This document shows, one piece after another, positions 3,707-39,483 of a stretch of DNA of 41,328 nt. The DNA is from a virus. How positions within the stretch are numbered: the first letter of the stretch is position 1; every line of letters begins with the position of its first letter. The notes beneath the pieces were generated by a model, which saw only the letters and a program-made list of their open reading frames with translations, had not been told where the DNA came from and searched no databases. The position numbers and the translations under genes are program-made. The DNA is taken from positions 1 through 41,328 of the IMG/VR virus record IMGVR_UViG_3300031758_000171. One strand, given 5' to 3'.

Positions 3707-5719
3707 TTACTCTTCGATAGCAGCGGCGGTAGCACCACCAGTGGTGTCGCGTAGAGCGGCAGCCACACCATTGACGCTGATGCTTGTGGTAATCTTCAAA
3801 GACTCCACACCAACAAAGGCAACGCCCTCGAAGGTTTCAATGAACATCTTGTAGTCGTTGGTGTTTACCAGTGAAGAGTCACGGATAATACCAAGGTCAA
3901 GAGTTCCACCGTCTAGGAACAAGAATGTTCCCTCAGCGAATAGGTACCATACGAACTGGTCTGGGAACTCAAGCAACTTGGCAGAAGCGCCTGGCTGAGC
4001 ACCAAATGAGTTCAGGTCTAGCGATGCGACTAGGTCGACATTGCTTCCTGCTAGGTAGCCCTTGATTTCGTTTGCACCTACGCCTAGAGTGCCGTCGCCT
4101 GGCATCGAAAGAGCCAAGTCAGCAGCCATAGCGTCGTAAATCCAAGCAGGGATAATCGCCTTTAGACGAGTCTCTGGGTTTAGACGGTGGCGTGAGCGGT
4201 AAGCAACAGCAGCCTTACGAACCTGAATCAAGAAGTCACGAGCAACACCAATTAGGTTTGCTGCTTCGGTAGTTGCGGCGTGAGCGTTAACTGCCTTAGA
4301 TGCGCTACTAATCTTGTCAAGTAGAACAAGTTCTGCTTCACGAGCATGCTGAACAAGAGCCAACTCGTTGTGACGAGAAATCAACTCTGGGTAAGCACGG
4401 GTCATCAGGTTACCGAACTGCAACTGTAGAGTAACAGCGTCGGTGTAAGCAGTGTTTTCTGCCGCAGCCGATACAGTAAGGGTTCCCTTAACTGTAGTGG
4501 TGTTGTCACCAATGTTGTTAGTCCAAGAAGCAACGCTTGGGCTAGCAGTGGTTTCGTTCCATAGACCTACAGCGTTAGCGTAGTCATAGACCGAAGCAGC
4601 GTTAGCGTTAGCGTTGGTTAGGCTGATTAGGGTTGGAGGAGTTACGAAACGAACACCACCACGGTCAGCCTGGAACTTCGGTAGAAGGTCACGGACTGGG
4701 CGGTCAGTGGTCGAGCCGAGACCAAAGATGTCATACTTGACCTCGAATGGAGCAGCGTGTCCACCAGAAGCGGTAAGTGCTTGCTGGCCTACAACTGCGT
4801 CAATCTTGGAACGGTTTGACTCTGGGTCGGTGGTGAGGACTCTGTCCTCTGGGTATGAAGTAGAGAAAGATGCAACGATGTGCTGCTCTCCATCTCCACC
4901 ATTGACACGACGAAGCGCGTGTAGACGCTTCTCCATTGCCTGAGCAACTTCGGTCATGTCTGCAATTGCGCTACCTGCAGTGTAACCAGGGATGTCAGCA
5001 CCTGCGGTGATTGCCACCTGTGCTGGCTCCTTAACCTGAATTACTGGCTGACGGTCAGCGGGAGCCTGGAAGCCCTCTTCTGCTGCTGCGGTCACGGGAA
5101 CCTGTTCTTCCTGTGGAACTTCTTCCACTGTTGGAGTTTCGATTGTTGGGGTTTCTTCGGGGGCAACTTCTTCGCCACCCTCAGTTGATGGTTCGACTAC
5201 ATCTGGTGTAGCCTCGGTAGAGAACTCTAGGGTCTCTTCAGTAGTAGTAGACGCTGCGTCTTCGGTTGAGTATTCAGGAGAAACTTTTTTCTTTTCCTCT
5301 TCATCATCAACTGGGACCTCTTCGACTGGAGCCTCGTCAGTTACAGGCATATCACCCATAGCATCTGGCTGCTCTTCGTCGACAGGGGCAACTGGCTCGT
5401 CGGTTGGAACTACTTCTTCCATAGGAACAACATCGGTACCTTCACCTGGAGCCACATCGCCTTCACCCTCACCCTTTACGCGCATTGCTGCTTCAGATGC
5501 TCGTGAGGCGAGTTCTTCTGCTTGCAATTCCCGACGCTGGATATCACCGCGTACAGTGTCCAACATATCGGCGAGGGATGACATAGCGTCAACTGTTTCT
5601 GGAGAAATGTCCTGAGACTCGACCTTCTCAAATTCGCTTACGATTGCCTGTTGCAACTCGGTGACTTGTTCGTCACTAAGTTCAGACAGGTTATCTACCT
5701 GCGACTTAATTTGGTCCAC
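3707..5719 (-). CDS. Scaffold-major capsid protein fusion (HK97 fold)
   Basis: A 670-residue fusion. Residues 1-100 are predicted helical or coiled coil and behave like a scaffold (delta) domain. About 100-205 is a very acidic, Pro/Glu/Val-rich low-complexity stretch. A probable processing zone holds two similar motifs, VTAAAEE (T210) and ITAGADI (T238). From about 240 the protein is a typical actinophage HK97-fold major capsid protein (GGVRFVTPPTLISL, AREAELVLLDKI, NPETRLKAIIPAWIYDA, FPDQFVWYLFAEGTFLFLDG), giving a mature subunit near 430 residues. The start is GTG with a strong AAGGAGG site; no better ATG exists. It lies immediately downstream of the protease gene, the usual order for capsid maturation. 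The exact cleavage position is inferred. Confidence 0.9.
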   Translation of the reverse strand: MDQIKSQVDNLSELSDEQVTELQQAIVSEFEKVESQDISPETVDAMSSLADMLDTVRGDIQRRELQAEELASRASEAAMRVKGEGEGDVAPGEGTDVVPMEEVVPTDEPVAPVDEEQPDAMGDMPVTDEAPVEEVPVDDEEEKKKVSPEYSTEDAASTTTEETLEFSTEATPDVVEPSTEGGEEVAPEETPTIETPTVEEVPQEEQVPVTAAAEEGFQAPADRQPVIQVKEPAQVAITAGADIPGYTAGSAIADMTEVAQAMEKRLHALRRVNGGDGEQHIVASFSTSYPEDRVLTTDPESNRSKIDAVVGQQALTASGGHAAPFEVKYDIFGLGSTTDRPVRDLLPKFQADRGGVRFVTPPTLISLTNANANAASVYDYANAVGLWNETTASPSVASWTNNIGDNTTTVKGTLTVSAAAENTAYTDAVTLQLQFGNLMTRAYPELISRHNELALVQHAREAELVLLDKISSASKAVNAHAATTEAANLIGVARDFLIQVRKAAVAYRSRHRLNPETRLKAIIPAWIYDAMAADLALSMPGDGTLGVGANEIKGYLAGSNVDLVASLDLNSFGAQPGASAKLLEFPDQFVWYLFAEGTFLFLDGGTLDLGIIRDSSLVNTNDYKMFIETFEGVAFVGVESLKITTSISVNGVAAALRDTTGGATAAAIEE

Positions 5720-23800: not shown

Positions 23801-24192
23801 TTTCCGTTAACATCTAGATTTACGCCAACATCTTTAAGTGCTTCTTTGCTTAGAAGTGCCTTAGCAACCGTAGCAACTCGGGAAGGGACTTCGTAGATAC
23901 CCGGTCTTCTGGCCTCTGTGACATAGACCCGCATATAGTCTGGGCGTTCAGCGGGACCGACATAACGACCAACAAATTTTTCAATAGTTCCGTTTCCTAA
24001 ACGGCCAGGGAACGAAATACCGCCACCCATTTCGGCCCAACGACCATAACGGTCACGCCTTTGAAGTGCTACACGAGCACGACGAGCAAGGGTGGAGTTT
24101 CCGCCAGATGTCCAGCGATTACCTGCCGCTACTAAACCTTCTTGGGTTTCGTCACATTCAAACTCTATACCGAAAGAGTTATAGTAGGTCAT
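11866..24192 (-). CDS. 4108-residue polyvalent head-associated protein with several enzyme-like domains
   Basis: An uninterrupted 12.3-kb gene. A short N-terminus leads to LVAAG (20-24), then a basic module (LARRAR, QRRDRYGRWAEMGGG, 35-58) shared with the 3229-residue protein. About 495-590 is a ParB/sulfiredoxin-like segment with DGHHRWAAAW (D547). At 642 is the linker VNYAP. About 790-910 resembles a GNAT acetyltransferase (DGHHALGLASAHINLI, then LKHSSNLSARGNPYSKM). About 1930-2180 looks like a HipA/phosphatidylinositol-kinase-type domain: DYWLGNQDF (D2052) and RCDVGGG (D2075). About 2290-2430 contains a Nudix-like box (GGAYKEHERF, then QEILNERFGV). The remainder is a dozen or more beta modules of 70-100 residues joined by Pro/Gln/Asn-rich linkers. 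The start is ATG with AGGAGA upstream. A packaged effector or internal head protein is likely; domain calls are by motif only. Confidence 0.7.
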   Translation of the reverse strand: MTYYNSFGIEFECDETQEGLVAAGNRWTSGGNSTLARRARVALQRRDRYGRWAEMGGGISFPGRLGNGTIEKFVGRYVGPAERPDYMRVYVTEARRPGIYEVPSRVATVAKALLSKEALKDVGVNLDVNGNRVGEILDRDIEFIDQMWKGNKPTDFELSMARGEVSKPEKRVIEKARLRAPKHKSYNIVDEKGNRIDKDEEPAKPDVKKPSKKAKPAEKFPVPDTSQWDEKRQSNDVWYEKDGKRIPDERLTEADKTPENKRIYIREGEKGENDKIIDGNGNLIEFKPSLKPESSPIPEKLPEHDPEEGFWNKARVRREEVRKNLKTPQEIYEELYNGGFAEADLDKAIAACDYALSQQKYLGRDENPLYASNPDDPRLRHIANLLESLPEWQEYRIKRAINLRFMNEENIDELKAWVDGKIEPGSPLSPEDMVELHRKFRNLAVDITNLRISGEDAFSNDNLGAERINMPQLDEKNLPLFLRDMARIGVGHRYTRMMPDQLHPVQMEMDMGDIAKIAESWKDIELFNKFNPHENPIVISRDGYVLDGHHRWAAAWLAQKRGDKLALKGLKVVQLDIDHEQALTIANEWNDYAGIRRITVGGKDVREPRPQAPAVPQATSKITSPSATPDLPRVSPQPDLVVNYAPSDDNLSTPSGENFKSFLDRELANVGDKIIPDFGDRLTEDTPNPEDRNSPFPGSRTVVNNLLKYRDSMIKAMKESALDQDQEKFRYQFEIAKRVTKLLNQIHENFSNNKNYAADTELSISTSNPEEKLKTVRVLPNTVRYGTDNNGIRKVQYFEAIIIAKNGKPYMVKWTPDHSHAHSIDKNGIVNDSNDGGGISFNGGQMYDEIVDGKPVPRIASVGGAFTNDGHHALGLASAHINLIRWVQSMFGGRLKHSSNLSARGNPYSKMVSRDMRWHDRSQADKAVHMSCPNATIFKVLKDMGLISGEYIPATPGAKQDDDTPGGYGAHSGGRGWLRRLTFTNNSGYSSNVSVLTSYSINDEVRAYDGEFLRKTPEEQQAILDAMPPIFRDFFAGDRSRDSIGRTADFDVQYKILETAYADGMKQQEAVDFLDSLITGLPELDRAFGRNADHRELLRRLKQLRDGISIGFWNQSDNNYNRPKSFDPNSIRAIESPFAGYFKFNDWVLPRDVNRVLNDLPFSARPHRGGWSKPDGWTEEPQALKDLYGPEILLASLRDALLNKKGKSAKLPDINGEENTVDPTAVYKALENNGYDTELILAGIYDELNGNSVNTEKLLAKRQELGNLQGIIEEITNEIADVKAPIEFSRIGGEYDSESKVLQSDLVRRGETGEIPTALQLRPLSLDNEAYDYLGPTGARTQVILSQHHTPEISMSRYYIDGVSDNPKVIARNFNPTGLRNALIDSVTKNNYAVKLRYPNGQTIDVPNNAIRDALQYQGYDINTVLREEPSLKPKLKRISSVSDRENADGNGTRISEWAIYNSSGEEIRLNGPGIRQKRNDTTGEHEWDVVDLSSPQDNRTIVAKLAKVKKNDEGNYEVWVANRADNKTDEFSGEPSGVYETLQEALYDVKNHISDDANIDASTNLLGQGRAPTVSNGFAIVGGANDEAEVTVGDLTLQRPDGAESFVVFSNGAGTGRFRRISTARIENNTIGTVYTAETYSVGEDGGKIEAFDLVRKSFIGSDPVRKQRIYEIAKTNRGFELTTHKYHPDEGGVTRTETLVFDNYEDAKDYANKKLLAGHIGLPGEKVFPNLSVRQERVPASADLSNQNIFQDNSSIQINTPVKMTDGVKGLLKINVKKGAHPTWRNGEDNQQYVFAEFSFGNEPDEPLITGKITRTGVRQWVTVSSTNSPSFKEHAISSILRNGTFFANSKEEAFESLKYRLEESFGITNQQRADGQSVLPRIRLVNRAVKLEPPPPPPAPEDKSLFADGVFDDFLRVRNTPLDITGAEDKGGMGLGQSGSRKYELPDGRKFKVKDEGARKAASESLNHALHLALGIPATEARTGKAPGTTHAVNVIDPFEPDIVSGRRNGHMPGQDLFKDSEFDKPENQQAIADIQEGLIIDYWLGNQDFVLNTGNSFVAVRDGVRRGVRCDVGGGMFTAIRQQLINNFADGNDAVEEFIHYCGDFMNSGRVNKSSESGHMRRGLTKEKMLDIARRTLLRYTDDKIDRIVDAHITDPNDNALAKQGLKARRLAMLNYLGIDHNETPPTRQAPAVQAPRVQPPTANVPGGTPNELPNGANGAVPVVGINPAGKPIVGLPGELQSNGLWVMPLEAITPDIANAIARGEVVPENLPLHAVDSTNPENSIVIDGSGVLRPASALNHGYTTVIARRKDANGNYQYLLVKPDGDNTPFGRANRDRFGGAYKEHERFDVRPSAQEILNERFGVEAENKVVATQEILRSVPGLDGVHRVIIADIADFDMSISQPHPTQGYALSRRWAIWSQNPYGDQGDDNFIPLDATERERLVSKARRWENTNPAPAGNQPPSGGDSNGGDDGSGPSNPSNGGGGTTPPMSGSDDDWQPFSRFTAISALPGMPEMEFEFNIYRRRDGAVKVVSEFDNLLGHVKPLEHGYWVATLMPDKIGTNNNVGAEKAFFRNKSDAENWLSRRIYNQVGVREDARRRFTDHPTDTTFFPDVQPPFVVERGYLNPTTDAQSRLAKRLVKNKQATAEERAMYKAILSQRNPTVGDVGWIIGQLKDREDRDIAEIQASDQAELDAFNAGNPIQESSLENAGDGANRRHAVRAGDLEVGHRILGNINADVVFTVPGENDTVNIGVVGDDGQLKIYKVGRNRVLDCIYGRQAQQAPAQQPAAQGLAVRRRRNELIQDEIRRAYPNAYTLPNGDIIIGKRDHRMADGRVFRYEAVVHKLKSDEFVGYVRRQELGADRAPTGPSEAAYLTTPAHSATALKNRLRKRVVPALTAANPANGFNQVGDVQPEVTDPSTGLLLPETLVNLQKRFIGTTGIEKTGHPAKDALIEYVQTLVARGISAPEIINQVTGPNQRLFSRAQMDDIIDRLEANRLYPGVNVIPYVSKDNKTIVRVGDRVVHYNADGTPKLMANGQPRTGTVVRRVPYTLNVKPSGQYEYTDQTFVQWDDTSRPHQAAPRRLEVTRRADGTDPIPAVQDSGSTPPSPSIDALPVQPKRVVPRPVAPSRRIPPIREPEQITESLIVQKMGQFTGQLPDNYTLDRSDAIDSANLGGRSPIVLTELTSDGEFIVGRVYQDGSSIVQEIRENGQAVSRRVARDLDDALEGLVLHAITQPFRRDDNESSDSSGGSSPDDAGGGVPTPPNNPPAGDGEEAESSAPGLDLSRGRNGQSPQGVLRFINGTIPKVNTFWDDDYPPTRYQVVRDENRTRFLGIGGDNPGAEAFIKVERTPEGNWKVVDPRRRRDNNGNYIDPDPYPAQYGDRNLAEAIAINDMTGNNENNRELLEAPETPAQNAPAVPSNQVPSDQELMDTDPAIRNFVNRGRVNNSRRLLTNGTEVTAYDADNEIASIQAPGPDGQYIVTDFRNGNVSGFSNRFEAIVQFGNILQSYDDQQGFNQVNLDSTPQRVPEIDLPWNDKRNEVQPLEISAIRSFEVIMDPNGDGNLAPVKVQINRNPDSTTFFVGDPISQDSDLNVIKYTAGWGVDGITSNSGEVKIFASRDEAEAAALNAFRDFYSDIRERYVAQGGNRNNAPAVPAVPATPTGPSNGGNGDTPPTNNPPVPPAQTPVPPAQEPADAVEPEIPQGRPRVNTVKPGDRYIKTRSRRDPNGGPQTLFDIYDRKTRKIIANARTWQEANDIVNGIRDLKGKLIDYQTPIQPRDRLAPSATKPQGYKRVANGNGYYLENPNDPDGPVVRVDWNEDSEDWVGALYANKADATATINPMEEFFDSSQDSIYNKANLSIQKELDRRNPPAPQPQAQTQPQANTGTKTNLGNDIFSVHNENEEYGIAIKGADGKWAVRVHENGIDAMNNTNPISTGSYDTPEEAEAAIRQAIAERKAQRNASNILQWQSASDGKAYLGLEGVPGRDADNSPIIGISPSPFGNSWISAGWNRKADRDAGLPPAVVNQHENEEAAKDYGQEMMRRLGELLGVRQVDPTIQENPSAGGEQLPPGVTLQDQVDAGLTTPLNPDAPLPGTNTPNQ

Positions 24193-24589: not shown

Positions 24590-24820
24590 TTAGACACCTT
24601 TTGGCTTTATGTGCCCAGACTTGATTAGTTCGTTTAGCAGTTCGGCTGGCATAGCCTTGGCTGCTGGCAATTTCAAAAAGTCTTCAATGCTGGTTCCACC
24701 TAGAGACCTTAGAAACTCTTCTGGCTCAGTCGGTAAATCCCAAGAAAGCGACTTTATCCAGTCGGCGTTTTCGTTGTCGGTTTCAGACCAGATTACTTCT
24801 TCATTTTCGTTTTCTGCCAT
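24590..24820 (-). CDS. Hypothetical small acidic protein (76 aa)
   Basis: A 76-residue, strongly acidic N-terminus (MAENENEEVIWSETDNEN) is followed by a helical half (EEFLRSLGG, IEDFLKLPAAKAMPAELL). I do not recognise a family. Its ATG overlaps the stop of the 3229-residue gene as TAATG, so it is translated with it. The size, acidity and tight coupling would suit a small chaperone or antidote for the ADP-ribosyltransferase array, but nothing in the sequence proves that. Confidence 0.55.
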   Translation of the reverse strand: MAENENEEVIWSETDNENADWIKSLSWDLPTEPEEFLRSLGGTSIEDFLKLPAAKAMPAELLNELIKSGHIKPKGV

Positions 24821-27800
24821 TATGGTATTCCTTGCTTTTGTTTTGCTAATTCATTCATTAATAAAGATAATACTATACCCACTGGCAAGGCACCAGCATT
24901 AAAAATCGGACCATCTGGTATAGTAAAGTATTTAGGTGTTCCGTCTGCGTTAAAACCTACTCTAAGTTTATCTCCAGGACTAACAAGATTTCCTGGATAC
25001 ATAATGGTCGGGTCCCCCGAAAACATGGCTTGAGTTAGAGTTGAGAAAAACTCTCCATGAAGAAACGGATTTAGCCCGCGAACTCCACCAACTTTTTTAG
25101 AACCTTTTTGATGTTGCGTAGAGTAAGGAGTGGAAATTTCAGGAGCAAAAACCGACACTTCTTCGTTGCTTAATAATGCAAGCAAACTTGCTGGTGTAAG
25201 ATTAGTTATTTCACTGCTCAAAACCGTGTCTCCAAGATTTCCGTTTACAAGATTTTGAATTAGATTTCCGTTAGCATCCCTTTGGGTTATAAAACGAGCC
25301 AAAACAGCCCACTCCGCTGGCTTAAGTTCTGGAAATAATGCTTGTATCATCATATGAGTCAGTTCATGTGCCGCAACGCTCACTGCCCTTTTCCTACCAC
25401 TACCCGGTATCGGTCTGCCACTTGAATCATCTTCATCTGGCCCATCTAGACCAAGTGACATAAACGCATCTTGCGGCGAAAGATTGCCCGATAAACTATA
25501 GGTACTCCTATCTTTAGGCAGGTAACTAAAATTTCCTCTATCTGTGGCAAAAAATATAACATCATTACTTGCTATAAAGTTTTTTACTAGCAAAGCAATC
25601 GGGTAAGGTAAGGTTTGTATTGCTTCAGTCAAAATAGAAGCATACCCTCTAGCATCTGTTAAATCACCAGTAGCCCGAATTGAAGGATTAGGAACAAAAA
25701 CGGGGTTACGATTCGCATCATGACCAAGGGAACCTTTTCCAACATAGTTTATTTCTCTTGGTTCTATAGTGACACTATGGCCAAAAACAATTCCTAACTC
25801 TTCTAATTTTGGTTTAATTATTTCATCATGCACCTTTTTAGAAAAATCTGTTATTGCTTTTTTGTAATTCTTTTTATTATCTTCATAAATTTCTAATTTA
25901 TTAAACAAATTCCTAGCAAGTTGGTTATAATCAGGTATTGGATTATTGCCAATAATTTCGGACAATTCCGCTTCCCAAGCCGCAGAGTTCGGGTTATTAG
26001 TAACATTTAAATTATGCGCGGCATCAAAAAATGATTCCCATGTTTGAGTAAAGTAAGTTCCTAACATCATTTTTGCAATAACTTTTTTTACTTCTGCGTC
26101 TCTTTGAGCAGAGTCTGGCATTTTTGCAATTTCAATTAAGTGAGAGTTGGCGGCTGTTAATAATGCCAATGTTTTTGTGAGGGCTTCGTCTTTCGATATA
26201 TTTGGATATCTCTTTTTTACAGCCCACTGAGCAAAAGCACCAAAATCACTATTCCAAACCAAATCTGGGGCGTTAGGGTCTTTTAAAAAATATTTGTCAT
26301 TGATATAACTTAAAGCCGTATCTATAATACTTTGTCGCACAGGACTGTTATTAGCCCCAAAATTATTTAGAATTGCTGAGTTTTCTAACTGCTGGGCTGC
26401 TCTTTCTAGTGTTCTTAATCCTAATTCTGCTTCATCTCTAGACGCTTTTACTTGCTTCTTTTGAGCATTTAAATCTTTAATTGTTTCAGCAAATTTTTCA
26501 TTTACTTGATTTTCAATATCATCAGAAGCAGCAGAACCCAATGCTTCCATTGTTGAAACTAAATCTTTCCAAACTTGATTAGGCTCTAAAATTTGAATTG
26601 AGTTTGGTTTTTCTGGGTCGTCACCGCCAGGCACATTAAAAATTTCTTGAGTAATGTCTGTAGAGCCCAAAATATTTAACGGCTGATTAGGGTCAAGTAA
26701 ATCTTGTGGAGACGACGGTAGCATTTGAGCAATTTCTGGAATTTTTTGTGCTAACTCTTCTTTTTGCTCCTCCATCCTTTCTTTAAGAATTTCTTTTTCT
26801 TTTTCTTGCTTTTCTTTAAGTTCTCCTTGTATCTTTTTTTGTGCTTCCGCTAATTTTTGTCTTCTTTCAACTTCTTTAGCAAGACCAGCGCCTTTATTTT
26901 TGTTTTTAGGGGCGTAATTTACTACTAATCTATTATCTGGTTCTATCGGAGCGTCGTTGCCTAATATAAATCCTTCAGGAGTTTCTAATGCGCCAAGGTC
27001 CTCTGGTTGTGGCATTATTTGTTCTACTACTTGACCGTCTTTTTTGATTAAGCCACTTTTATTTGATTCAATTTCTTCTTTTGTTTTTGGCTCTACATCA
27101 AACTCAAGGTAAGTAACTCCGTCTTTTTCGGTTTTACTTACTAATTTCATTTTTACATCTGGGCGCAAAAGAACTGCTTGCACCATAGCGTCTTCTCTAT
27201 CTCTTCCAGCATCAATATCGCTAAAGTTTTCACTTTCGTCTGCTTGATTTTTTGTATATAAAGCATTCATACCTTTAGGGCAGTTCAATCTAAGAACCAC
27301 TGGTTTTTTGCCTTTGTTGAAATAATAGGTTTTATCTAATTGGTCGCCGTTCCTGCGAAGCAATTGTTTGTTAGGCACATCAGATAACAAACTCAGTTCC
27401 TGTATATTGTCAAAATAAATTGAGTCTCCCACTTCGGCAGCGTCAACTATATTTTCTGGTAGCCACTCGCCTCTGTGAAGTTGAGTATTTTCTTTTAAAG
27501 TTGATTGAGATATTAGTGGAGAAATTCTAGAAACAAATTCAGGTTTCATACTCTTGTTATAGACATAACTACCTCTTGTGCTGGCTAGTACCTGTCTTGA
27601 TGTCTCACTTGCGCCCCAGTCGCCTATGGCATATAACGATTCTTTTCTGACATTTTTTAGTCCTTGCCAAATATCTCCCGGACTTGTAATTTCTGTCCTT
27701 GACGGCGGATTTGGTATAACTCCGCCAACAGATAATTCAAACTTGCTTTCAATAAATTTCTTATCAAAATCTCTCAGAGCGTTTATGGAATCAGCCAAGT

Positions 27801-30800
27801 CTTGAACTAAATTAAAATACTTTCTTCCTAGTTCGTCTATAAGACGAGGATTAGGCACTAATCTGCCATTTTCATCCATATCGTACTTATACGGTAGTGG
27901 TCGGTAGGCACCTCCGTTAGCCCTCCTCGCCGCGCGCTCTTTGTCTAAAATCTCTTTTCTGGCTCTGTCTAACTTATTTTCTGCTTCTTCATATTTTTTA
28001 AATAATTGTTCGCGCTTTTTTAAATCTTTTCCGTATTTTTTAGGTTCTGGGACATCTGAACTTACTAATTTTTGAGGACCAGTTAGATTTAGTGGGGCAT
28101 AACTTACTATAAAACCTTCTGCTGGAGAGTCAAGTGGCGCTTTTTCAGCATTAGCCTCTAATTTTTCGGCAAAAAATGGTTCCACATTTTCGTATGTTTC
28201 TGGCTGGTCATTTTTAGATTCAGGCTTGTTTTCGTCAATGCTATAAACTTTTTCTTGTTCCAACTCAATTACTTGAATTTCTTTTGGTTCGCTCAACATC
28301 CAAACTGAAATTGGAATGGAGTATTTGCTTCTATTTCTGTCGTTAGTAAATTTCAACGTATCGGTGTTGAAGCGTGATAAATCGTCTTTTGGATTTTTTA
28401 TCAATGCTTCTCGTATTTCATTTAGCAAATCTTCTGGTACTTGCCCACGAAGAATTGGTATACCCTCTGCTGGGCGGTCTTCAGTGTCAAAAATATTTAC
28501 ATAATCTCTTGACCAAACTGGAGTAAGAACGGTTTGGTTGCCGACTACTCTAAACTTTCCGTTTACTACAGTTTCGTAATCGTGCGGGTAGAATGAGTTA
28601 GTTTTAGAGAGAGACACTCCATTAGCACCTTCTCTAATTTTTAGAATTATAGGACCCCTATCTGTGCCCCTATTAGTTGCGTACCAAGTGGCAACTCCGG
28701 GTGAGCGCGTGGCAGAAGCAAGTGGCATATCAACCGTATCGCCCTCTCTAACGCTTCTTAGTCTTTCTAATTCTGGAGTAGAAGCGTTTTCGCCATATCC
28801 GTTTGCCAACCCACGATATAGTGGCGGTTGAGGGCGACTATTTGCAATAGCATTGACCATTCCCTTTATGGCTTTTTCGCCCGGAGCACCCCAGCCTCTT
28901 TGGAGCATAAAGTGGCTTCCCTTGCCCTTATCAAACTCAGTTTCTGGAACTGGTAGTCCAATTAAACGACAAGCCTGTTGACGCATGTAGTCAATGAATT
29001 GATTTCCGTCAGGACCTCTCTCCCACGCCCACCAAGTGTTTCGTGTCATTCCGCCAGCATTTTTTGGAGAATTAGGTATCTCGTCTGTGGGGTCAAACGA
29101 GGTTATGTCAGCAACTGCGTCTCTTTCTGGCCGAATAAGTCTTTCAGGAGCATAGTTAACCCATTCGCCAAGTCTAAATCCACTTTCAGCAATTTGGTCT
29201 AGCGGACTTTCAACATCGCTATCAAATACAACTTGATAATTGGCTGCCCTGTTTTCAAAGTTAAAAGCATCACTTATTCCTCCTAATGGGCTCATATCTC
29301 TTTGACTAGAGACATCTATGCCTTTAGTGTTTCCACCAAGAACAACAAATTCTCTTTCATCTAAGCAACCAAAACCAGTGCCAGGGAAACAGAATATATC
29401 TTTTACATCAAACTCTTTGCGGAACAACCTACTTTGTTCGTAGCGGTTGGCAAAAATTGTTCCAATTCTTCTGCTTGTAGTCCAAGCCGATAACGGTCTA
29501 AGGCCCAAAGTTGCGGTAAATTTTCCACCGTTAGGAAAAGTAGACTCTACAATTTCGTGGTTACTAAATTTCTTTACTCCACGGAACAAAGTAAGTTTTT
29601 TTATTCCCTTACGCTTGAAATATTCTTGAGTAAGGTCGTATTGAGCCCTTAGAAACTTTCTAATTAAGTTTTCGCTAGTTTCTAAAATTTTATCTACTTT
29701 TACTTGTTTCTCTGGGCTAATTTCCCAATCAGCCGCCTTTTCAATTCCAAATTCTTTTTTGGCTAATTCTTGAATTGCTAAAGATAAAGGCTCGTCGCCG
29801 TTTGAAGTAAAAGCCCAAGAACTAATAAGTGCTCTTACAACTCCATATTGACTGCTCTCTTCATCATTAGGAAAGTTGACGACTATGCCCAAGTCTTTGA
29901 AAAGATTTGCTGTTTCTGCCCACTCCGATGCTTCAACAGAAGACATTTTATTTTCAAGGTTTTGTGCCACACCCTTTTTCAAAGCCCTTGCTAGTTCTAC
30001 GGTCCCCTCGCCCATAGGACCAGTTCCTATTTGACCAGTGCGAATTGCCTCTCTGTCGTGGAATTCCAATGAATTTTTTAGAGTAAGTGGCATCTCCCTT
30101 TTGTGGAAAGTGGAGTCTTCGGCAATTGATACCCAAATTGCTTCTGTTGGGTGGTGTCGCGCAATTTCATTTCTTTCTGCGTCGTTTAGTAGTCTAGAGT
30201 CACGGCGCGAAGGAGCGTAATTTACTTCTAATCCCAAGTCTGGAAGTAAGTTTGGAAGAGATTCGTAAGTAATGGCTTGTGGCTCTGGAGATGGGTATTT
30301 GACTGGACTACCTTCTCCACGAGTGTTTAGAACACTGTAGGTTCCTATATCAACGCTATCTACAACTCCACCTAGAACTACCATTTCTTTTTCTTCATAA
30401 CAACCATTACCAAAGCCTGGCATAGAAAATATGTTTTTTACATCAAATTCTTTACGGAATACTCTTCCGTCTTCTCCCCTAGCAAACCCAATTGCTACCC
30501 CCTCTGAAGTCGACCAAGATGATAAAGGTCTTAGTCTTACTGCTCCTGAAATGCCATTTTCTGTTGAGGAAGTGGTCTTTGGCATATCGTGAGCCTTGAA
30601 GTTTTTGACTCCACGATAGAGAGTTATTTTAGATATACCCTTTTTCTTGAAATATTCTTGAGTGAGGTCATACTGGGCTTGTAAAAATCTTCCAATCAAG
30701 TTTCTGTTTTTGTCAGCAACATCTTTAACCTGTATCTCCATACCGATTCCGTTATTCCATTCGGCTGAACCTCTAATGCCAAACTGTCTTCTAGCCACTT

Positions 30801-33800
30801 CTTGAATAGCAAGAGACGAAACATGCGAACCGTTGGATGTGGATGCCCATCGACTAACTAGGCTTGAAACGGCGGTATACCTAACAGCATCTAAAAATTC
30901 TCTATTATCACTGTCTGGAAGAATAAGATTTTTGAAAAGAGTAAATCCGCCTAATCGACCATTTTCATTATAGGCATCAAGAATTAGTCGTGCTTCTTCA
31001 AGAGTTACCTCTTTAGTAGAATTAATTTTGTCAACGAGTTCCTTCTGTTCTCTATAAAAATCATTATTTGTCGTAGCCCATCTCAAGACATTAGCAAATT
31101 CTGCTCTAAGGTTTACACCAACTTCTTTTCTTGCATCTAGACTATAAAAAATTACTTCTTGAAGTTTTTTAGGCTCAGACCAGTCCATGTGTTTAGATAG
31201 TCCAGAGAACACCCCCAAATCATCTAATACTCTTACAAACTCTTTGTCGTCAACATCCTTGAGTTTTTCTGCTAGAGATTTAGCAACATTTGCTTTTAGC
31301 CTTTTAGCCAAGTGTTTTTCTGGGTCATTGTTTTGATTTATAGCAATAGCCTCGTCAATTATGCCGTTTAGACTTACTCCCAGTACATCTTTAGAAAGTC
31401 TTAGCCAAATTGCTAGTTGTGGGTCAGTTACTCTTTCTGAGTCTGGTCTTGTGGTGGGGAGAGGCGCGTAATTAACTTCGAATGGGCCTCCTTCGCCCAA
31501 GCCATCTGCTCCTCCTCCGTCATCTGGGAGAAGTTCTCCGGGACTTTCACTAGATTCAGGTCGTGGCCCTTTGACGAGTCCTTGGAGTCTGACATCTATT
31601 TGCTCCTTTGTTTGAGGTTCGATATCCACATCAATGTATGTTGTGTCATCTAACTTAGTTTTTCTAATTATAGTCATTTTTGTATTGCGACGCATAATTA
31701 CTTCATCGTCGCCAACATGTATAGCATTCATACCCTGCGGAGCAAGAATTCTAAAAACAACTCTTTCTTTGCCTTGACTTTTTTCGGCTCTAAAATCTAA
31801 ATAACTTGTTGCGGTGTCTACATCTAGTCCAGAAGACTGGAAACCTCTGTCAAAGTAAGAGTCCTGAATTTCTATTTGACTTACCAACTCAGGGTCTAGC
31901 CAAGCCCCCCTATACAGCACGGTGTTTTGTTTTAATTTAGATTTATTTACAAGCCTATCCACGCTTTTTACTTTAGAACTAGCAACCTGACCTTCTCGGA
32001 GACCAGCGTTCATCTTTAGAGTTGCTTCATCGTCGCCGACATACCTATCTCTAATGTCTAATAAACCTTGATTAACAGCAAGTCCGTTGTTTTTCCCGCC
32101 CGGGTCCATACCGTCAGCCATTTCAAAAACTGAACGAATGTAATTTTGGAATACAGAATTTCTATTTTTTTCAGCGTCGTCTCTGCGTTTTAGGTGTTCA
32201 TAAATTTCTGGACTTACTTTTGCTACTTCTGGATTTGGAGAACCGTCGTCTTTAAAAAATCCTATTCCAGTATCACGCTCAAAGTTTTGCCAAACTGCAT
32301 AATTATCTCTAAACCACTTATTTTCTTCATCTGTAATCCTGTCGGATTCTTCCCTAACTCTTTTATCTTCTTCTTTATCTAGAACTGGAGTATTTCGTAT
32401 TGTTTCTCTTCTACGCTTTTCAACTTCAATGTAATAACTCTTGCCCTCTGAGGCACCAAAAATAGCAATTTCGCCTCGTTTTTCTCCAGCGTCAAATGCA
32501 TCATCAAAATCTTTTATCCACTCACTGACATCTAGAAAGACCATTTCTTTCTTGTCAATTACATTTCCATTTTCGTCTTTCACCTCAACCATGTCTGTCC
32601 AAGTTCCAAGATAAAAACCTTTTTCCATAAGTTTTTCTTGGTTTTTTAAAGCATAAGCACGAAGAATTTTTGGCCCCTCGATTGGGTCCATAAAGTCTTC
32701 TGGAGTAACTAACTGCTCACGCTTTTTTACGCTTCCATCTGGTTGCACAACATCAGCCTCGTGAGCAACTAAATATCCTTGGTCTGGATTACTTCCATCA
32801 ACAAAATCAACCGAGTTTCCGCCCCACTGCAATGTGTTGGCAATTATTTCTTCGTAGAAATCTTGTCCTTGTTCTAGGTCTTTTGGAATTTCAGTATCAC
32901 GCTCAATGTCTTCGGTATCTTGGTAGTAGCCAAGTATCTCTCTTTTACCGTCGCTTCTTACTCTTTCAAGTCTCCATAAATTGCTTACATCGCCATCCCA
33001 GTCTTTAGCACCGTCAAAAGTTTCAATTGGCTTCCCACTTTCAAGAACTTGCTTTCTAACATTTTTGGCTTGCTCTTGCTTTTTAGGAGCCATAGATACA
33101 GCAATAAATCGGCCACTAGGGTCTGTATAAGAATCGTTTCCCATAGCGACATCTCTGCCCCCAGCGTAGTATCCGTAAGGATTATAATCCGCTGGTATGT
33201 AGCCTCTTTCTTGCTTTTTCCAGCCTTTTATAAATCCTTGCTCTTGTGGTTCATCTAATTCGGCTTTCTTTTTGCTAGGAGAAAGTTTCTTATCATAGCG
33301 AGCAATCAACGCCTGAGCGTCACCCCACCCCTGAGCCACGGCAAATGGCTTATCAACTACCGTTCCGTCAGCGGAACCTTGGGCAATGTGATAAACGGGT
33401 AGGTCTGGATTTATGCTTTTATCAGAATTAGCACCACGAGTACGAGTGATGCTACTCTCTTTTGGTGCTGAGGCAAGGTTAGGATAGCGAGTTGCTATCC
33501 AACCATCAGCGGAACGGAAAACATCAACGCCGTTTTCGCTAGAAACTTTTTCCCAACCAGTTGGAGCATCTTTTAGTTGTAAAGTGCTTGGGTCCACAAT
33601 TAAATTTTTAGCAACGCTCTTTGAGCGTGGCTCTGGCAACCCTAAACTGTCTGGAAGAATTGCTTTTATCGCTTCTACTTGTGAAGCGGGAACGCTAATA
33701 ACTTTTCCAAAGTAAGGGCTACCTGGAACGCCCTCTAGGTCAAACGAATCTGTTTTTGCGTCGTATCCAGCAAATCTGAACAAAGAAGATACTGCGTCAA

Positions 33801-34509
33801 ATAATTTTCCGAGCCATACTCTGGCTCCACCGCCCATCCAAGCAAAGCGACCTCTTCTGTCGCGGCGCTGAGCCCTAGCCCTGGCGCTTCGTGCTAAAAA
33901 AGAGTTCCCCCCAGCGTAAGGGTTTCCAGCGGCGGTCAAGCCGAGGATGATATCCCTTGGTACTTGGGTAGCGTTAGTTGCTTCCAACTTTGCTATTAGA
34001 TACTCACGCTCTACGCTCTCTTCTGGTGTAACAAAAGCAGTAGCGACTAATGGGCGGAACTCTTCGGCAATTCTAGGGTCTGCCGACATCCACTCAGCAC
34101 GGGCTTGAGCCAACTCTTCCTCAGAAAAGTCGTTTGGTCTGGTTGATAGGGGGTGTCCTACTGGAAGTAGGTCTCTGTGTTCTCCAGCAATCTTTGGCTG
34201 TGCGCCAGTAGTTGCCATATTCACAAAGTCTGATAATTCTCTCATTGCGGTAAACGCTCTTTGAGAGGGGTTGTTGAAATTGGTGACTGTTCTGTTGAGA
34301 CTTCGCTCTAGAACTTCAAGCATTTCAAATCTTCCAACTCTACGGCTAGGAAGAGTTTTGCTGTTTGCTGACGCTACTAAAGCAGTACCTTCGATGACAA
34401 CATTTGTTTTATCTTTCTTCACATAAACAGATGGAAGAGCAGGTCTGTCGGCACCTTCAATGATTTTATTTATTTCATCAACAGGGTCAAAGTTTTCGTA
34501 TTCACTCAT
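24820..34509 (-). CDS. 3229-residue polyvalent protein with five tandem ADP-ribosyltransferase-like domains and a C-terminal HExxH domain
   Basis: Early residues hold ALVASA (V45) and LTAAGN (T192), then the basic module QRRDRRGRFAWMGGG (214-228). ART-like domains follow: ART1 (R867 in VLYRG, S892/S893, E936); ART2 (R1299, SSWSTS, E1373-K-E1375); ART3 (R1643, E1718-R-E1720); ART4 (R1899, SATRS, E1979); ART5 (R2346 in LHRG, but Ala where ART1 has E936). Each unit is preceded or followed by V[NS]YAP, at 1012, 1429, 1784, 2135 and 2530. ART2 and ART3 are paralogues with the same helical prelude (QYDLTQEYFK); ART1 and ART5 form another pair. After 2530 come a charged coiled coil and HELTH (3048-3052), a zincin motif. 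The ATG overlaps the Dps stop (TAATG). R-S-E ART logic is established; packaging and injection are inference. Confidence 0.8.
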   Translation of the reverse strand: MSEYENFDPVDEINKIIEGADRPALPSVYVKKDKTNVVIEGTALVASANSKTLPSRRVGRFEMLEVLERSLNRTVTNFNNPSQRAFTAMRELSDFVNMATTGAQPKIAGEHRDLLPVGHPLSTRPNDFSEEELAQARAEWMSADPRIAEEFRPLVATAFVTPEESVEREYLIAKLEATNATQVPRDIILGLTAAGNPYAGGNSFLARSARARAQRRDRRGRFAWMGGGARVWLGKLFDAVSSLFRFAGYDAKTDSFDLEGVPGSPYFGKVISVPASQVEAIKAILPDSLGLPEPRSKSVAKNLIVDPSTLQLKDAPTGWEKVSSENGVDVFRSADGWIATRYPNLASAPKESSITRTRGANSDKSINPDLPVYHIAQGSADGTVVDKPFAVAQGWGDAQALIARYDKKLSPSKKKAELDEPQEQGFIKGWKKQERGYIPADYNPYGYYAGGRDVAMGNDSYTDPSGRFIAVSMAPKKQEQAKNVRKQVLESGKPIETFDGAKDWDGDVSNLWRLERVRSDGKREILGYYQDTEDIERDTEIPKDLEQGQDFYEEIIANTLQWGGNSVDFVDGSNPDQGYLVAHEADVVQPDGSVKKREQLVTPEDFMDPIEGPKILRAYALKNQEKLMEKGFYLGTWTDMVEVKDENGNVIDKKEMVFLDVSEWIKDFDDAFDAGEKRGEIAIFGASEGKSYYIEVEKRRRETIRNTPVLDKEEDKRVREESDRITDEENKWFRDNYAVWQNFERDTGIGFFKDDGSPNPEVAKVSPEIYEHLKRRDDAEKNRNSVFQNYIRSVFEMADGMDPGGKNNGLAVNQGLLDIRDRYVGDDEATLKMNAGLREGQVASSKVKSVDRLVNKSKLKQNTVLYRGAWLDPELVSQIEIQDSYFDRGFQSSGLDVDTATSYLDFRAEKSQGKERVVFRILAPQGMNAIHVGDDEVIMRRNTKMTIIRKTKLDDTTYIDVDIEPQTKEQIDVRLQGLVKGPRPESSESPGELLPDDGGGADGLGEGGPFEVNYAPLPTTRPDSERVTDPQLAIWLRLSKDVLGVSLNGIIDEAIAINQNNDPEKHLAKRLKANVAKSLAEKLKDVDDKEFVRVLDDLGVFSGLSKHMDWSEPKKLQEVIFYSLDARKEVGVNLRAEFANVLRWATTNNDFYREQKELVDKINSTKEVTLEEARLILDAYNENGRLGGFTLFKNLILPDSDNREFLDAVRYTAVSSLVSRWASTSNGSHVSSLAIQEVARRQFGIRGSAEWNNGIGMEIQVKDVADKNRNLIGRFLQAQYDLTQEYFKKKGISKITLYRGVKNFKAHDMPKTTSSTENGISGAVRLRPLSSWSTSEGVAIGFARGEDGRVFRKEFDVKNIFSMPGFGNGCYEEKEMVVLGGVVDSVDIGTYSVLNTRGEGSPVKYPSPEPQAITYESLPNLLPDLGLEVNYAPSRRDSRLLNDAERNEIARHHPTEAIWVSIAEDSTFHKREMPLTLKNSLEFHDREAIRTGQIGTGPMGEGTVELARALKKGVAQNLENKMSSVEASEWAETANLFKDLGIVVNFPNDEESSQYGVVRALISSWAFTSNGDEPLSLAIQELAKKEFGIEKAADWEISPEKQVKVDKILETSENLIRKFLRAQYDLTQEYFKRKGIKKLTLFRGVKKFSNHEIVESTFPNGGKFTATLGLRPLSAWTTSRRIGTIFANRYEQSRLFRKEFDVKDIFCFPGTGFGCLDEREFVVLGGNTKGIDVSSQRDMSPLGGISDAFNFENRAANYQVVFDSDVESPLDQIAESGFRLGEWVNYAPERLIRPERDAVADITSFDPTDEIPNSPKNAGGMTRNTWWAWERGPDGNQFIDYMRQQACRLIGLPVPETEFDKGKGSHFMLQRGWGAPGEKAIKGMVNAIANSRPQPPLYRGLANGYGENASTPELERLRSVREGDTVDMPLASATRSPGVATWYATNRGTDRGPIILKIREGANGVSLSKTNSFYPHDYETVVNGKFRVVGNQTVLTPVWSRDYVNIFDTEDRPAEGIPILRGQVPEDLLNEIREALIKNPKDDLSRFNTDTLKFTNDRNRSKYSIPISVWMLSEPKEIQVIELEQEKVYSIDENKPESKNDQPETYENVEPFFAEKLEANAEKAPLDSPAEGFIVSYAPLNLTGPQKLVSSDVPEPKKYGKDLKKREQLFKKYEEAENKLDRARKEILDKERAARRANGGAYRPLPYKYDMDENGRLVPNPRLIDELGRKYFNLVQDLADSINALRDFDKKFIESKFELSVGGVIPNPPSRTEITSPGDIWQGLKNVRKESLYAIGDWGASETSRQVLASTRGSYVYNKSMKPEFVSRISPLISQSTLKENTQLHRGEWLPENIVDAAEVGDSIYFDNIQELSLLSDVPNKQLLRRNGDQLDKTYYFNKGKKPVVLRLNCPKGMNALYTKNQADESENFSDIDAGRDREDAMVQAVLLRPDVKMKLVSKTEKDGVTYLEFDVEPKTKEEIESNKSGLIKKDGQVVEQIMPQPEDLGALETPEGFILGNDAPIEPDNRLVVNYAPKNKNKGAGLAKEVERRQKLAEAQKKIQGELKEKQEKEKEILKERMEEQKEELAQKIPEIAQMLPSSPQDLLDPNQPLNILGSTDITQEIFNVPGGDDPEKPNSIQILEPNQVWKDLVSTMEALGSAASDDIENQVNEKFAETIKDLNAQKKQVKASRDEAELGLRTLERAAQQLENSAILNNFGANNSPVRQSIIDTALSYINDKYFLKDPNAPDLVWNSDFGAFAQWAVKKRYPNISKDEALTKTLALLTAANSHLIEIAKMPDSAQRDAEVKKVIAKMMLGTYFTQTWESFFDAAHNLNVTNNPNSAAWEAELSEIIGNNPIPDYNQLARNLFNKLEIYEDNKKNYKKAITDFSKKVHDEIIKPKLEELGIVFGHSVTIEPREINYVGKGSLGHDANRNPVFVPNPSIRATGDLTDARGYASILTEAIQTLPYPIALLVKNFIASNDVIFFATDRGNFSYLPKDRSTYSLSGNLSPQDAFMSLGLDGPDEDDSSGRPIPGSGRKRAVSVAAHELTHMMIQALFPELKPAEWAVLARFITQRDANGNLIQNLVNGNLGDTVLSSEITNLTPASLLALLSNEEVSVFAPEISTPYSTQHQKGSKKVGGVRGLNPFLHGEFFSTLTQAMFSGDPTIMYPGNLVSPGDKLRVGFNADGTPKYFTIPDGPIFNAGALPVGIVLSLLMNELAKQKQGIP

Positions 34510-34982
34510 TACTTGAACTCGATTCTGGTTATGACGGTTGAGTCAGCACCAATAGTGGTGCCTATTTGCCAAACCCACTTAGCGTGTTGGTCAATACGCT
34601 CTGCTAGGAAGTTGGCAATTCCTTGTTCATTACAAGCGTTGGCAATATCAAACGCTTTTGTTAAACACTCTTTAAGGTGGCAATTTATTTCGTATAGATT
34701 GCTACTCATTTCAATCGGGTCGCCTGAAACTGGATTTACGCTAACGCAAGTTAGAGAAGCAAAGTCTTCTAAAGTAAATGGAGCGTCAAACCCAAGTTTG
34801 CGAATATTCTCGGCTAACGGGTCAATTGCTGAATCAGCGTCTTCATAAAGTGTTGCGAAGAAGTCGTGAAACTGAGTGAACTCAGGACCTTTCACATTCC
34901 AGTGATAGCCGTGAGCAATGAACTTGTATGTAACCGTATCGGCTAAACATACTGCTAGATGTTCTGCTAATTTCTGATGCAT
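34509..34982 (-). CDS. dps: Dps/ferritin-like DNA-protection protein
   Basis: A 157-residue protein with the Dps signature HWNVKGPEF at 27-35 followed by FHDFFATLYEDADSAIDPLAENIRKLG. H27, H39, D54 and E58 match the spacing of the inter-subunit ferroxidase ligands known in Dps (H-x11-H, then D and E four apart), so iron oxidation is likely. Dps dodecamers bind iron, detoxify peroxide and often bind DNA; here there is no Lys-rich N-terminal tail, so DNA binding is uncertain. It sits between portal and a giant head protein with TAATG coupling downstream, an unusual place for a stress gene. The start is ATG; only a weak AAGAAAG-type ribosome-binding site precedes it. Confidence 0.85.
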   Translation of the reverse strand: MHQKLAEHLAVCLADTVTYKFIAHGYHWNVKGPEFTQFHDFFATLYEDADSAIDPLAENIRKLGFDAPFTLEDFASLTCVSVNPVSGDPIEMSSNLYEINCHLKECLTKAFDIANACNEQGIANFLAERIDQHAKWVWQIGTTIGADSTVITRIEFK

Positions 34983-34991: not shown

Positions 34992-36818
34992 TTACTGAGT
35001 AGGTTCGGCTAGGCCTGGCGGAGTAGCGTCTGACGGAGCGATAGGCTGTGGCGGTGCGACTTCTTCTGTCGGTGGAACTGGAGCACTTTCTTCGGTTACT
35101 CCTGGCTCTGCTAATCCAGGTGGTGCTTCTTCTGGAGCGGGTGGTGCTTCTCCACCTTCAGGTGGCGGACCGCCCTGAAGCATTTGGTCTAGACCCGGAA
35201 CTGCTGGAGTTGGCTGTGCTGCCTGTGCTGAAGCACGGATTTTCTCCATAACATCTGGAGCAACAACACCAAGCATTGCTTCAGTAAGTTCTGGAGTAAT
35301 CATTCCCTTTTCAACAAGCAAACGCAACGCAACTTCGGTTGGGCTTGGTGCCTCTGCTTCGGAGAAACCGTGTGCTCTACGCCAAGTCTCAAACGAAACT
35401 GCCATCTTCTCAAAACCGCTGTCCGCATCTGCGGCACGGTCATTGCGAGTAGCAACCTGTGATGGGTCATACCAAACAACAATGCGTTCTACTTCTGGCT
35501 CGGTAAATCCGTTAGCAAGTAGGTATGGGCGTAGATAGACAACTGTAAGAGCGTCGGCGATAAGCAACATCAGTGGCTCAATGTGAGCCTTGTACAAAGC
35601 CTCGTCAATTTGAAGTGCGTTTGAATACTTCACATTTGCTAGACCAGTAACGATGTCTTTTGGAACATCTAGACCCTGAAGAATTCTTTCAAGAACACGG
35701 TCAGCACGCTGAGCAAGAGCAGGGTCAAATGAACGCTCAAACTTGAACTGCTTGATTTTATCTCCAAGTTCAGCAGGTCCACGAATAATCAACGGAACAA
35801 CGGCAGACGCTGAATCTTCATCCTTGATAGGAGTTGTCATAGCATCCATAAGTTGGTCTTCAAATTCGTCTTCCAACTCCTCTGGAGTAGGGCCGTCGTA
35901 GATACCATCGGCATCTGTGTATGGGAAATCTGGGTCTGGGTTAGCAGCAACCGAAAGACCGTCAGGCAGATAGAGCGCACCAGCGTTCAGACGGGAACGC
36001 GCCGTTGCACGGAATGTGCGGTTCAAAAGTAGAAGTTCAGCACACAAGTCTAAAATTCCACGCATTGATGAATCGGCTTCTTCGGAAAAGCGTGGGTGTG
36101 CTTTCCAAATACGACCAATGAACGCACCTTTCGGCAAAACATAAACGCCCTTTTGAGTTCCACCACCAGCGGTCTTTAGTTCTCGTCTAGGACTGATAAC
36201 AACATTTGCTCTGCTATCAACTGTGATTTCATCAACGGAACGAATATCCCAAGACTCTGGAGTTCCATCTGAAGGGCGTTGAGGAATTTGACTTAGGTAG
36301 CACTCACCAGTTACTTGGAGATTTAGTGCTGCGTCTTTTAGCAGACCAGCCTGACCGCCATACGCTGAATCAAGTCTTGCTAGAGCACGCTCAGCGGCAG
36401 CGACAATACGCTGGTCAAAGGCTTCAACATTTCTAATTGGACTTGGGCTTTCAGCGGGATTAGAAACTACTGCTGGATAAAGACGAATACGAGAAACAAC
36501 GCTAGCAACAAGATTGAAAGCGTATTTGATTTCACCAATTGCGTCGTAGTATTCCCACGCTTCTGATTGCCAAGCAGACGACGCTGCTGCCCTACGATTT
36601 TTGAATTGCTCGGCTTCGGACTTGTCGCCAATTTTTAGTTGAGCAGCCGCAGCGGTCAATGCTCTAGGTGCGTTGTAAGGGGCAGACGGGGCAGCGTTAG
36701 GAACTGGTTTTAGAAAAACAGAGTTAGCAGGGAGAGTATTCGCTACTGGATTAGAAGCACGAATACCACGCTGTGGAGTATTTGTTGCGGGTGATTTATC
36801 ACGCCTGAAAACGCCCAA
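34992..36818 (-). CDS. Portal protein
   Basis: A 608-residue protein forming the dodecameric DNA channel at one capsid vertex. Actinophage portal features include WQSEAWEYYDAIGEIKYAFN near 83-102, the GECYL segment, LDVPKDIVTGLANVKYSNAL, and the helical IDEALYKAHIEPLMLLIADAL stem region. The last 90 residues are a Pro/Glu/Ala-rich tail. An early ALTAAAAQ motif (T55) resembles the putative processing motif in other head proteins here. The only in-frame start near the AAAGGAG site is TTG at 36818; the site overlaps the stop of the upstream gene. The position between a putative small terminase and the head cargo genes is standard. Confidence 0.9.
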   Translation of the reverse strand: MGVFRRDKSPATNTPQRGIRASNPVANTLPANSVFLKPVPNAAPSAPYNAPRALTAAAAQLKIGDKSEAEQFKNRRAAASSAWQSEAWEYYDAIGEIKYAFNLVASVVSRIRLYPAVVSNPAESPSPIRNVEAFDQRIVAAAERALARLDSAYGGQAGLLKDAALNLQVTGECYLSQIPQRPSDGTPESWDIRSVDEITVDSRANVVISPRRELKTAGGGTQKGVYVLPKGAFIGRIWKAHPRFSEEADSSMRGILDLCAELLLLNRTFRATARSRLNAGALYLPDGLSVAANPDPDFPYTDADGIYDGPTPEELEDEFEDQLMDAMTTPIKDEDSASAVVPLIIRGPAELGDKIKQFKFERSFDPALAQRADRVLERILQGLDVPKDIVTGLANVKYSNALQIDEALYKAHIEPLMLLIADALTVVYLRPYLLANGFTEPEVERIVVWYDPSQVATRNDRAADADSGFEKMAVSFETWRRAHGFSEAEAPSPTEVALRLLVEKGMITPELTEAMLGVVAPDVMEKIRASAQAAQPTPAVPGLDQMLQGGPPPEGGEAPPAPEEAPPGLAEPGVTEESAPVPPTEEVAPPQPIAPSDATPPGLAEPTQ

Positions 36819-38937: not shown

Positions 38938-39483
38938 ATGACACTACCAACAAGAAATAATCTGTCTGACTTTGAGCGACCACGGCACAATGATTTGCCT
39001 AAATCTCTATGGACTGAAACTTTGCCTGACCTATGGCAAGGTGGAACACTTGATGCTTATGGCAATGAAGACTGGTTTGAGCAAGTAGATGTTATCGGCA
39101 AAGAGATTAGCAAGAAACACTTTGATTGCGTCTATACACTTTACGCAAGTGCTGACCCAGTTGATTGGTTCGTCAAGGAACTTAGGTTCGGCTTCTATGA
39201 TAGTTCGCTAACTGACTTTGACCCAGTAGAAAATCTATTGGACATAGTTAAGATGGCTCATAAAGATTGGAAGTCTGGTAAGAGAGTTCTTATTAGATGT
39301 CAGGCTGGACTAAATCGTAGCGGTTTAGTTATGGCTTTGGTTCTAATTCGTGACGGCTATGAGCCAGCAGATGCTATCAAACTGATGAGAGAGAAGCGTT
39401 CATCTTGGGTTCTATGTAATAAGAACTTTGAGAGATACTTACTCGGCTTAGATGAAAAGCAGTTAGCAATCTGGAGAAACTAA
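38938..39483 (+). CDS. Dual-specificity protein phosphatase
   Basis: A 181-residue protein of the cysteine-based phosphatase superfamily. The P-loop RCQAGLNRSGLV fits C-x5-R-S, with C121 as nucleophile, R127 binding phosphate and S128 following. D88 in FGFYDSSL is a likely general acid, about 33 residues upstream as in the family. The length is normal for a minimal dual-specificity phosphatase, and there is no signal peptide or membrane segment. It removes phosphate from Tyr/Ser/Thr residues, or possibly from RNA or lipid. It is the only plus-strand gene, with its own promoter, ribosome-binding site (AAAGGAG, 9 bases upstream) and terminator, as in phage morons. The target is unknown; a host kinase pathway or the kinase-like domain of the 4108-residue protein are possibilities. 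Confidence 0.85.
   Translation: MTLPTRNNLSDFERPRHNDLPKSLWTETLPDLWQGGTLDAYGNEDWFEQVDVIGKEISKKHFDCVYTLYASADPVDWFVKELRFGFYDSSLTDFDPVENLLDIVKMAHKDWKSGKRVLIRCQAGLNRSGLVMALVLIRDGYEPADAIKLMREKRSSWVLCNKNFERYLLGLDEKQLAIWRN

Follow-up and report, generated by a model that had tools for sequence, protein, structure and literature searches.

A giant phage head-locus protein with five ADP-ribosyltransferase-fold domains of three subtypes as likely virion cargo

The window analyzed here is a 41 kb viral record (IMG/VR record IMGVR_UViG_3300031758_000171, positions 1 to 41,328), which carries on its minus strand a single open reading frame (ORF) of 3229 amino acids (aa), 34509..24820, with an ATG start. This ORF contains five ADP-ribosyltransferase (ART)-fold domains of three subtypes, numbered modules 1–5 from the N-terminus (Table 1). 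We consider it likely that its product, termed the ART-array protein below, is polyvalent-type virion cargo of a freshwater phage, which would be ejected with the DNA and would ADP-ribosylate host proteins. An earlier sequence-only reading had described an ORF with five arginine-motif domains, and the exact coordinates, length and motif positions were recovered in our analysis.

Modules 1 and 5 are of the Vis/C3-exoenzyme type, modules 2 and 3 are DraT-like with an R-S-ExE signature, and module 4 is a toxin-like R-S-E domain, which agrees with the earlier count of at least three subtypes. The arginine motifs are LYRG865, LYRG1297, LFRG1641, LYRG1897, and LHRG2344. Modules 1–4 also contain the Ser/Thr-rich strand and the glutamate motif at the places claimed before (E936 in module 1, EKE with E1373/E1375 in module 2, ERE with E1718/E1720 in module 3, and E1979 in module 4), and by these residues they look catalytically complete; module 5 has no such glutamate. 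The profile of modules 1 and 5, which are homologous to each other, matches C3larvin and the solved arginine-ART Vis (4xzj, E 1.1e-6). Modules 2 and 3 are 47% identical. When the entire protein is searched, the Pfam DRAT model reaches 45.9 bits, which exceeds its cut-off of 25. In the family of these two modules, the arginine and E-x-E are invariant across 17 homologues. An ExE motif indicates arginine-directed transfer, and modules 2 and 3 probably modify arginine. Their likeness to DraT (Pfam PF07357) covers only profile positions ~156–251 of 256, toward the C-terminus; the N-terminal half is unmatched, and the locus shows no sign of a nitrogen-fixation context.

Module 4 gave no match in sequence searches, but its ART fold was borne out by structure prediction: the best 12 PDB matches that Foldseek returned for an AlphaFold2 model (predicted local distance difference test, pLDDT, 58; predicted template modeling score, pTM, 0.59) are all ARTs, separated by a clear gap from the next match, and Certhrax was matched at E 9e-6. 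Its arginine, serine, and glutamate are invariant in three homologues. The array thus resembles Vis/C3-type exoenzymes (ADPrib_exo_Tox) by profile in modules 1 and 5 and by fold in module 4, but differs from them in its phage head locus, its modular arrangement, and the missing catalytic glutamate of module 5. Named phages gave no match to module 1 or module 4, and the joint alignment of modules 1 and 5 held no stretch of sufficient conservation to search with. A search of the window record with Pfam PF01129 was also without a match, although its controls were equally silent, so that it is uninformative.

At the glutamate position, module 5 has an alanine. Since the homologue in relative L091 has alanine there too, module 5 represents an inherited altered subtype rather than fresh decay. 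It is predicted to be inactive or altered in catalysis, and is perhaps a binding module. Extending this to the whole protein, the ART-array protein would be an inner-head or scaffold component with inactive ART-fold binding modules, as the glutamate-free module 5 and its L091 homologue might suggest. We regard this as very unlikely, given that arginine, serine, and glutamate are kept in modules 1–4 and the arginine and ExE are invariant among the homologues of modules 2 and 3.

The gene lies in a head locus. In the direction of transcription, the order is terminase, portal, Dps-like ferritin, ART-array protein, a 4108-aa ORF, a 228-aa ORF, a 1757-aa protease fusion, and capsid protein, which confirms the placement between portal/Dps and protease genes noted from the sequence. 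Other IMG/VR contigs encode near-identical proteins, among them L001 (genome G001, 135 kb) and L002 (82 kb), both at 99–100%. A similar gene order is seen in the 129 kb genome of DSL-LC01, a Dishui Lake phage with an actinobacterium as predicted host (PMC10611076), and the phage studied here is probably likewise a freshwater phage of an actinobacterial host.

The N-terminus of the ART-array protein is shared far more widely than its ARTs. Its module QRRDRxGRFAxMGGG, which includes the invariant core listed in Table 1, is common to the 4108-aa ORF, two DSL-LC01 proteins, and ~50 viral loci. A motif of the form L[TV]A[AS] stands ~17–22 aa upstream of RDRxGRF, at a near-fixed distance, in 37 of 54 proteins under the pattern applied (8% in shuffles), and several of the others have a close variant, for example LLAAL or LTAGI. 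The same motif is also present in capsid protein, portal, and protease: head-locus proteins contain it 15 times in 10.8 thousand aa, compared with 2 in 23.8 thousand aa elsewhere. In T4, the internal proteins and Alt carry a capsid-targeting leader that is removed at a head-protease site (PMC7411985). By analogy, L[TV]A[AS] may be the head-protease site at which such a leader is removed: the N-terminal leader would direct the ART-array protein to the procapsid, and the head protease would then cut it off at LTAA. T4 Alt is also a head-packaged R-S-E ART, and gp21 cleaves its N-terminal leader at the head-protease site; packaging, leader, and site are predictions for the ART-array protein. Alt, the single-ART prototype, has a leader of 10–20 aa, compared with five ARTs and ~190 aa in the ART-array protein (~20 aa in the 4108-aa ORF). 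The N-terminal 830 aa gave nothing reliable against Pfam and PHROGs, and no relatives of the N-terminal module were confirmed in bacterial genomes.

The protein ends in a module of 694 aa that the sequence-only reading had overlooked, as it had the leader. The H, E, and H of its HELTH motif and a later glutamate are invariant in seven homologues, which marks it as a probable zincin metallopeptidase. The 4108-aa ORF appears to be a second giant cargo protein; Pfam detected nothing in it beyond a weak ParB-like match. Its region aa ~1930–2180 matches the DSL-LC01 giant and is kinase-like by eye.

Behind the common N-terminal module, the giant head-locus proteins of the ~50 viral loci carry different cargo, including GNAT arrays, helicase, exonuclease, and ArdC/MPTase-PolyVal domains. 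ART modules themselves are reordered behind a constant N-terminus, from 1-2-3-4-5 in the ART-array protein to 1-4-2-2' in L013, 1-2-5-2' in L091, 1-2 in L017, and 1-4 in L018, and a tree of the DraT-like modules has at least two clades, which coexist within single proteins. In L094, type 2 and type 1 modules form separate adjacent genes shortly after a MuF gene. In L095 and L102, a DraT-like ART is fused to the C-terminal side of Phage_Mu_F. These fusions contain the same ART subtype as modules 2 and 3, but only one ART next to the MuF domain, and Pfam finds no Phage_Mu_F in the ART-array protein. L121:8611-12343 has adjacent ART-like ORFs after the portal gene, the first of which starts with a GGHDQESHGNWADGG-type tag; none of them has a Pfam ART match. 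Among more distant giants, that of L022 (L022:9428-18355) contains six GNATs in series (Pfam), followed by an ART-like and a RelA/SpoT-like module, with each module bounded by EDLG, and is the acetyltransferase counterpart of the ART array; the latter two modules and its zincin were recognized by eye. The L077 giant combines RNase_T, UvrD, ArdC, and MPTase-PolyVal, the L055 giant carries UvrD, and the L037 giant RNase_T, while in the L028 genome two ArdC, two MPTase-PolyVal, and one ADPrib_exo_Tox domain are found in the second giant. Contig G008 (L131/L132) has an ORF of ~4800 aa, read in two pieces, with 21 GFxQx[PA]G motifs, which seems to be two giant cargo proteins fused. This exchange of cargo had also escaped the sequence-only reading.

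A further feature missed there is a short motif, VNYAP and once VSYAP, that follows each of the five ART modules. Shuffles predict 0.003 copies in the ART-array protein, which has five, one at each ART junction and never inside a module. One more copy is found in the 4108-aa ORF, and no other G001 protein has the motif. In strain L001, the linker directly behind VSYAP contains a tandem duplication of 16 aa, which leaves the motif intact. The form [VI]N[YN][AGS]P describes the motif here and in four relatives (L013, L091, L017, and L015), whose junctions have NYGP, NNSP, NNAP, or NYSP despite their reordered modules. A second lineage (L025, L028) contains 15–21 copies of GFxQx[PA]G, and the third (L022) has EDLG at every junction. 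A table of genomes by motifs is diagonal, with one motif per genome, apart from one PEDLG that is probably due to chance. All junction motifs are confined to giant cargo proteins, where both giants of a genome carry them; the other relatives examined for such punctuation mostly have generic Pro/Glu/Gly-rich linkers. Because the motif stays the same throughout a genome, changes from one genome to another, and is restricted to cargo, co-evolution with a trans-acting phage factor is suggested, and we think that the motifs are processing or packaging signals. Candidates for the factor are the embedded zincins or a packaging receptor.

If the motifs are proteolytic sites, the ART-array protein would be a polyprotein, and either the embedded zincin or the head protease would divide it into its individual effectors, a possibility that we take seriously without favoring it. 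Placement at every ART junction and nowhere within modules is consistent with cleavage, and three motifs in three lineages, always in cargo only, would be expected of sites that co-evolve with a protease. A zincin motif is present in the giant proteins of every punctuated genome checked (HELTH; HELGH; HELAH/HELVH), and in the module 4 model, the flanking motifs coincide with or adjoin segments of pLDDT <50. There is precedent in both directions: DdrB of P1 is processed before packaging, with its metallopeptidase (MPTase) proposed as autoprotease, but the N4 vRNAP carries an MPTase and is nevertheless packaged uncut (PMC5512222). Cleavage is also at odds with L018, L019, and L021, which have HExxH modules and no motif. 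As the cutter, the head protease is not favored, because the capsid protein and the protease itself lack VNYAP, GFxQxPG, and EDLG and their own L[TV]A[AS] sites are alike across lineages.

The same restriction to cargo, shared by the two giants of one genome, would also fit docking tags: by binding a capsid or scaffold protein, they would tether the long cargo at many points and let it be packed in order, with the chain left whole. The constancy of the motif next to a linker that varies freely, including the tandem duplication between strains, points the same way. We find this explanation doubtful, since no candidate receptor was identified and a motif of this kind is absent from L018 and most relatives. 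Modules have clearly been duplicated and shuffled, and the motifs could in principle be functionless linker remains copied along with them in recombination. This is improbable: VNYAP corresponds to NNAP or NYGP at the junctions of relatives, and the motif follows unrelated modules (ART types, GNAT, and ParB) alike. Recent copying of linkers was rejected, as the motif codons differ synonymously between copies and the flanks are dissimilar.

Tentatively, and aware that it may well prove wrong, we propose a broader idea: in this phage group, every module of an injectable effector polyprotein would be bounded by a genome-specific motif that is read by a co-evolving phage factor, either an embedded zincin or a packaging receptor, and any domain that gains the tag would become cargo. 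If true, this would account for the assembly and exchange of ART, GNAT, and other arrays. The literature searched, the coverage of which is incomplete, contains no description of the junction motif, and the word "linker" is absent from PMC5512222. To our knowledge, the motif, differing by genome, is the first clue to how such giants might be partitioned. Should it direct processing or loading, the sequences of uncultured phages could reveal where modules begin and end, which cargo is present, and possibly new anti-host enzymes.

Among known systems, the closest frame for the ART-array protein is provided by polyvalent proteins, giant phage proteins with one or many ARTs, in which ARTs are the commonest modifying domain and reach up to 12 copies (WP_023121221.1) (Iyer 2017, PMC5512222). 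Serial ARTs had been considered exceptional in the sequence-only reading; the literature does not support this, as polyvalent proteins with up to 12 of them were already described. Like these, the ART-array protein is a giant with several effector domains (five ART folds and the HExxH module) among portal–terminase head genes; its C-terminal module is a probable zincin-like peptidase, and its relatives have ArdC, helicase, and GNAT partners. The difference lies in the ARTs: those of polyvalent proteins were assigned to the H-Y-D (Tox-ART-HYD2) clade (PMC5512222), whereas here R-S-E and DraT-like ARTs of three subtypes stand in series. Since the R-S-E Alt/VIP2 clade is described as absent from genuine polyvalent proteins (PMC5512222), several subtypes of R-S-E and DraT-like ARTs in series are a new composition. 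We do not call the H-Y-D clade a strict requirement of the polyvalent class and regard the ART-array protein as a variant within it, by which the known range of polyvalent phage proteins comes to include several R-S-E ART subtypes in series.

Several observations weigh against assigning the ART-array protein to polyvalent-type virion cargo. Pfam PolyVal models match relatives but not the protein itself, and its link to the polyvalent network (MPTase-PolyVal, ArdC) runs only via relatives that share the N-terminal module or the locus (L077 and the second giant of L104). The quality of the module 4 model is modest, and the model of the C-terminal module matches PDB folds, some zincins among them, only weakly and without significance. 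The phage is known from metagenomes only. For the junction motif, the main counter-example is L018, which has ART modules and a probable zincin but lacks the motif. A packaged multi-effector, as proposed in the sequence-only reading, is still the most economical interpretation, given the fusion of the same ART subtype to MuF elsewhere; delivery with the DNA is the conjectural part of it. After leader removal, the body would consist of ART modules on disordered linkers with the genome-specific motif and a probable zincin at the end. It would leave the virion together with the DNA, as an intact chain or in pieces cut at the motifs; early in infection, modules 1–4, the ARTs that look complete, would then ADP-ribosylate several host proteins.

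Table 1. Features of the ART-array protein and neighboring genes (positions in the window)
Feature	Position	Strand	Evidence or remark
Giant ART-array protein	24820..34509	-	start overlaps Dps gene end by 1 nt
N-terminal leader, aa 1-193, predicted capsid-targeting propeptide	33931..34509	-	conserved at N-terminus of ~50 giant proteins
LTAAG (aa 191-195), predicted head-protease site	33925..33939	-	position and recurrence in capsid protein, protease
RRDRRGRFAWMG module (aa 215-226)	33832..33867	-	invariant core
ART module 1 (R867, S-rich strand, E936)	31477..32169	-	Pfam ADPrib_exo_Tox E 1.3e-3; Vis profile match
Junction motif VNYAP, aa 1012-1016 (after module 1)	31462..31476	-	
ART module 2, DraT-like (R1299, E1373-x-E1375)	30226..31458	-	Pfam DRAT E 9.9e-6 as piece
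Junction motif VNYAP, aa 1429-1433 (after module 2)	30211..30225	-	
ART module 3, DraT-like (R1643, E1718-x-E1720)	29161..30207	-	Pfam DRAT E 1e-3 as piece
Junction motif VNYAP, aa 1784-1788 (after module 3)	29146..29160	-	
ART module 4 (R1899, SATRS, E1979)	28108..29145	-	AlphaFold2 model; PDB fold matches
Junction motif VSYAP, aa 2135-2139 (after module 4)	28093..28107	-	
ART-fold module 5 (R2346 kept, Glu to Ala)	26923..28086	-	BLAST to module 1 E 3e-22
Junction motif VNYAP, aa 2530-2534 (after module 5)	26908..26922	-	
C-terminal module with HELTH (aa 3048-3052, nt 25354-25368)	24823..26904	-	HExxH and later invariant Glu
Second giant cargo ORF, 4108 aa	11866..24192	-	short leader, RDRxGRW module, ParB-like domain, one VNYAP
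LVAAG of 4108-aa ORF	24121-24135	-	after leader of only ~20 aa
VNYAP of 4108-aa ORF	22255-22269	-	after ParB-like domain
Portal	34992..36818	-	phrog_776 E 9e-105
Dps/ferritin-like protein	34509..34982	-	Pfam Ferritin E 1.6e-15
Head-maturation protease fusion, 1757 aa	5864..11137	-	phrog_859, phrog_18402, phrog_3244
Major capsid protein with scaffold-like N-terminus	3707..5719	-	65% identity over 455 aa to annotated DSL-LC01 major capsid protein

The Dps/ferritin-like gene (34509-34982) has homologues in 25 ORFs of relatives, often directly upstream of the giant gene, and its product is possibly a packaged or early oxidative-stress protein. The protease fusion (5864-11137) contains two copies of one domain at aa ~685–760 and ~840–915 (phrog_6439 match), which includes GDWTRCVxHLxKYLGxRAKGYCxLRHKExTGM. 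Between terminase and portal, and on the strand opposite to them, lies a dual-specificity phosphatase gene (38938-39483, +; Pfam DSPc E 6e-10) that is kept in several relatives. Two adjacent tail-type genes (24-1361 and 1377-2498) are 67% identical over their length and form a tandem duplication, the DSL-LC01 match of which is annotated as one major tail protein.

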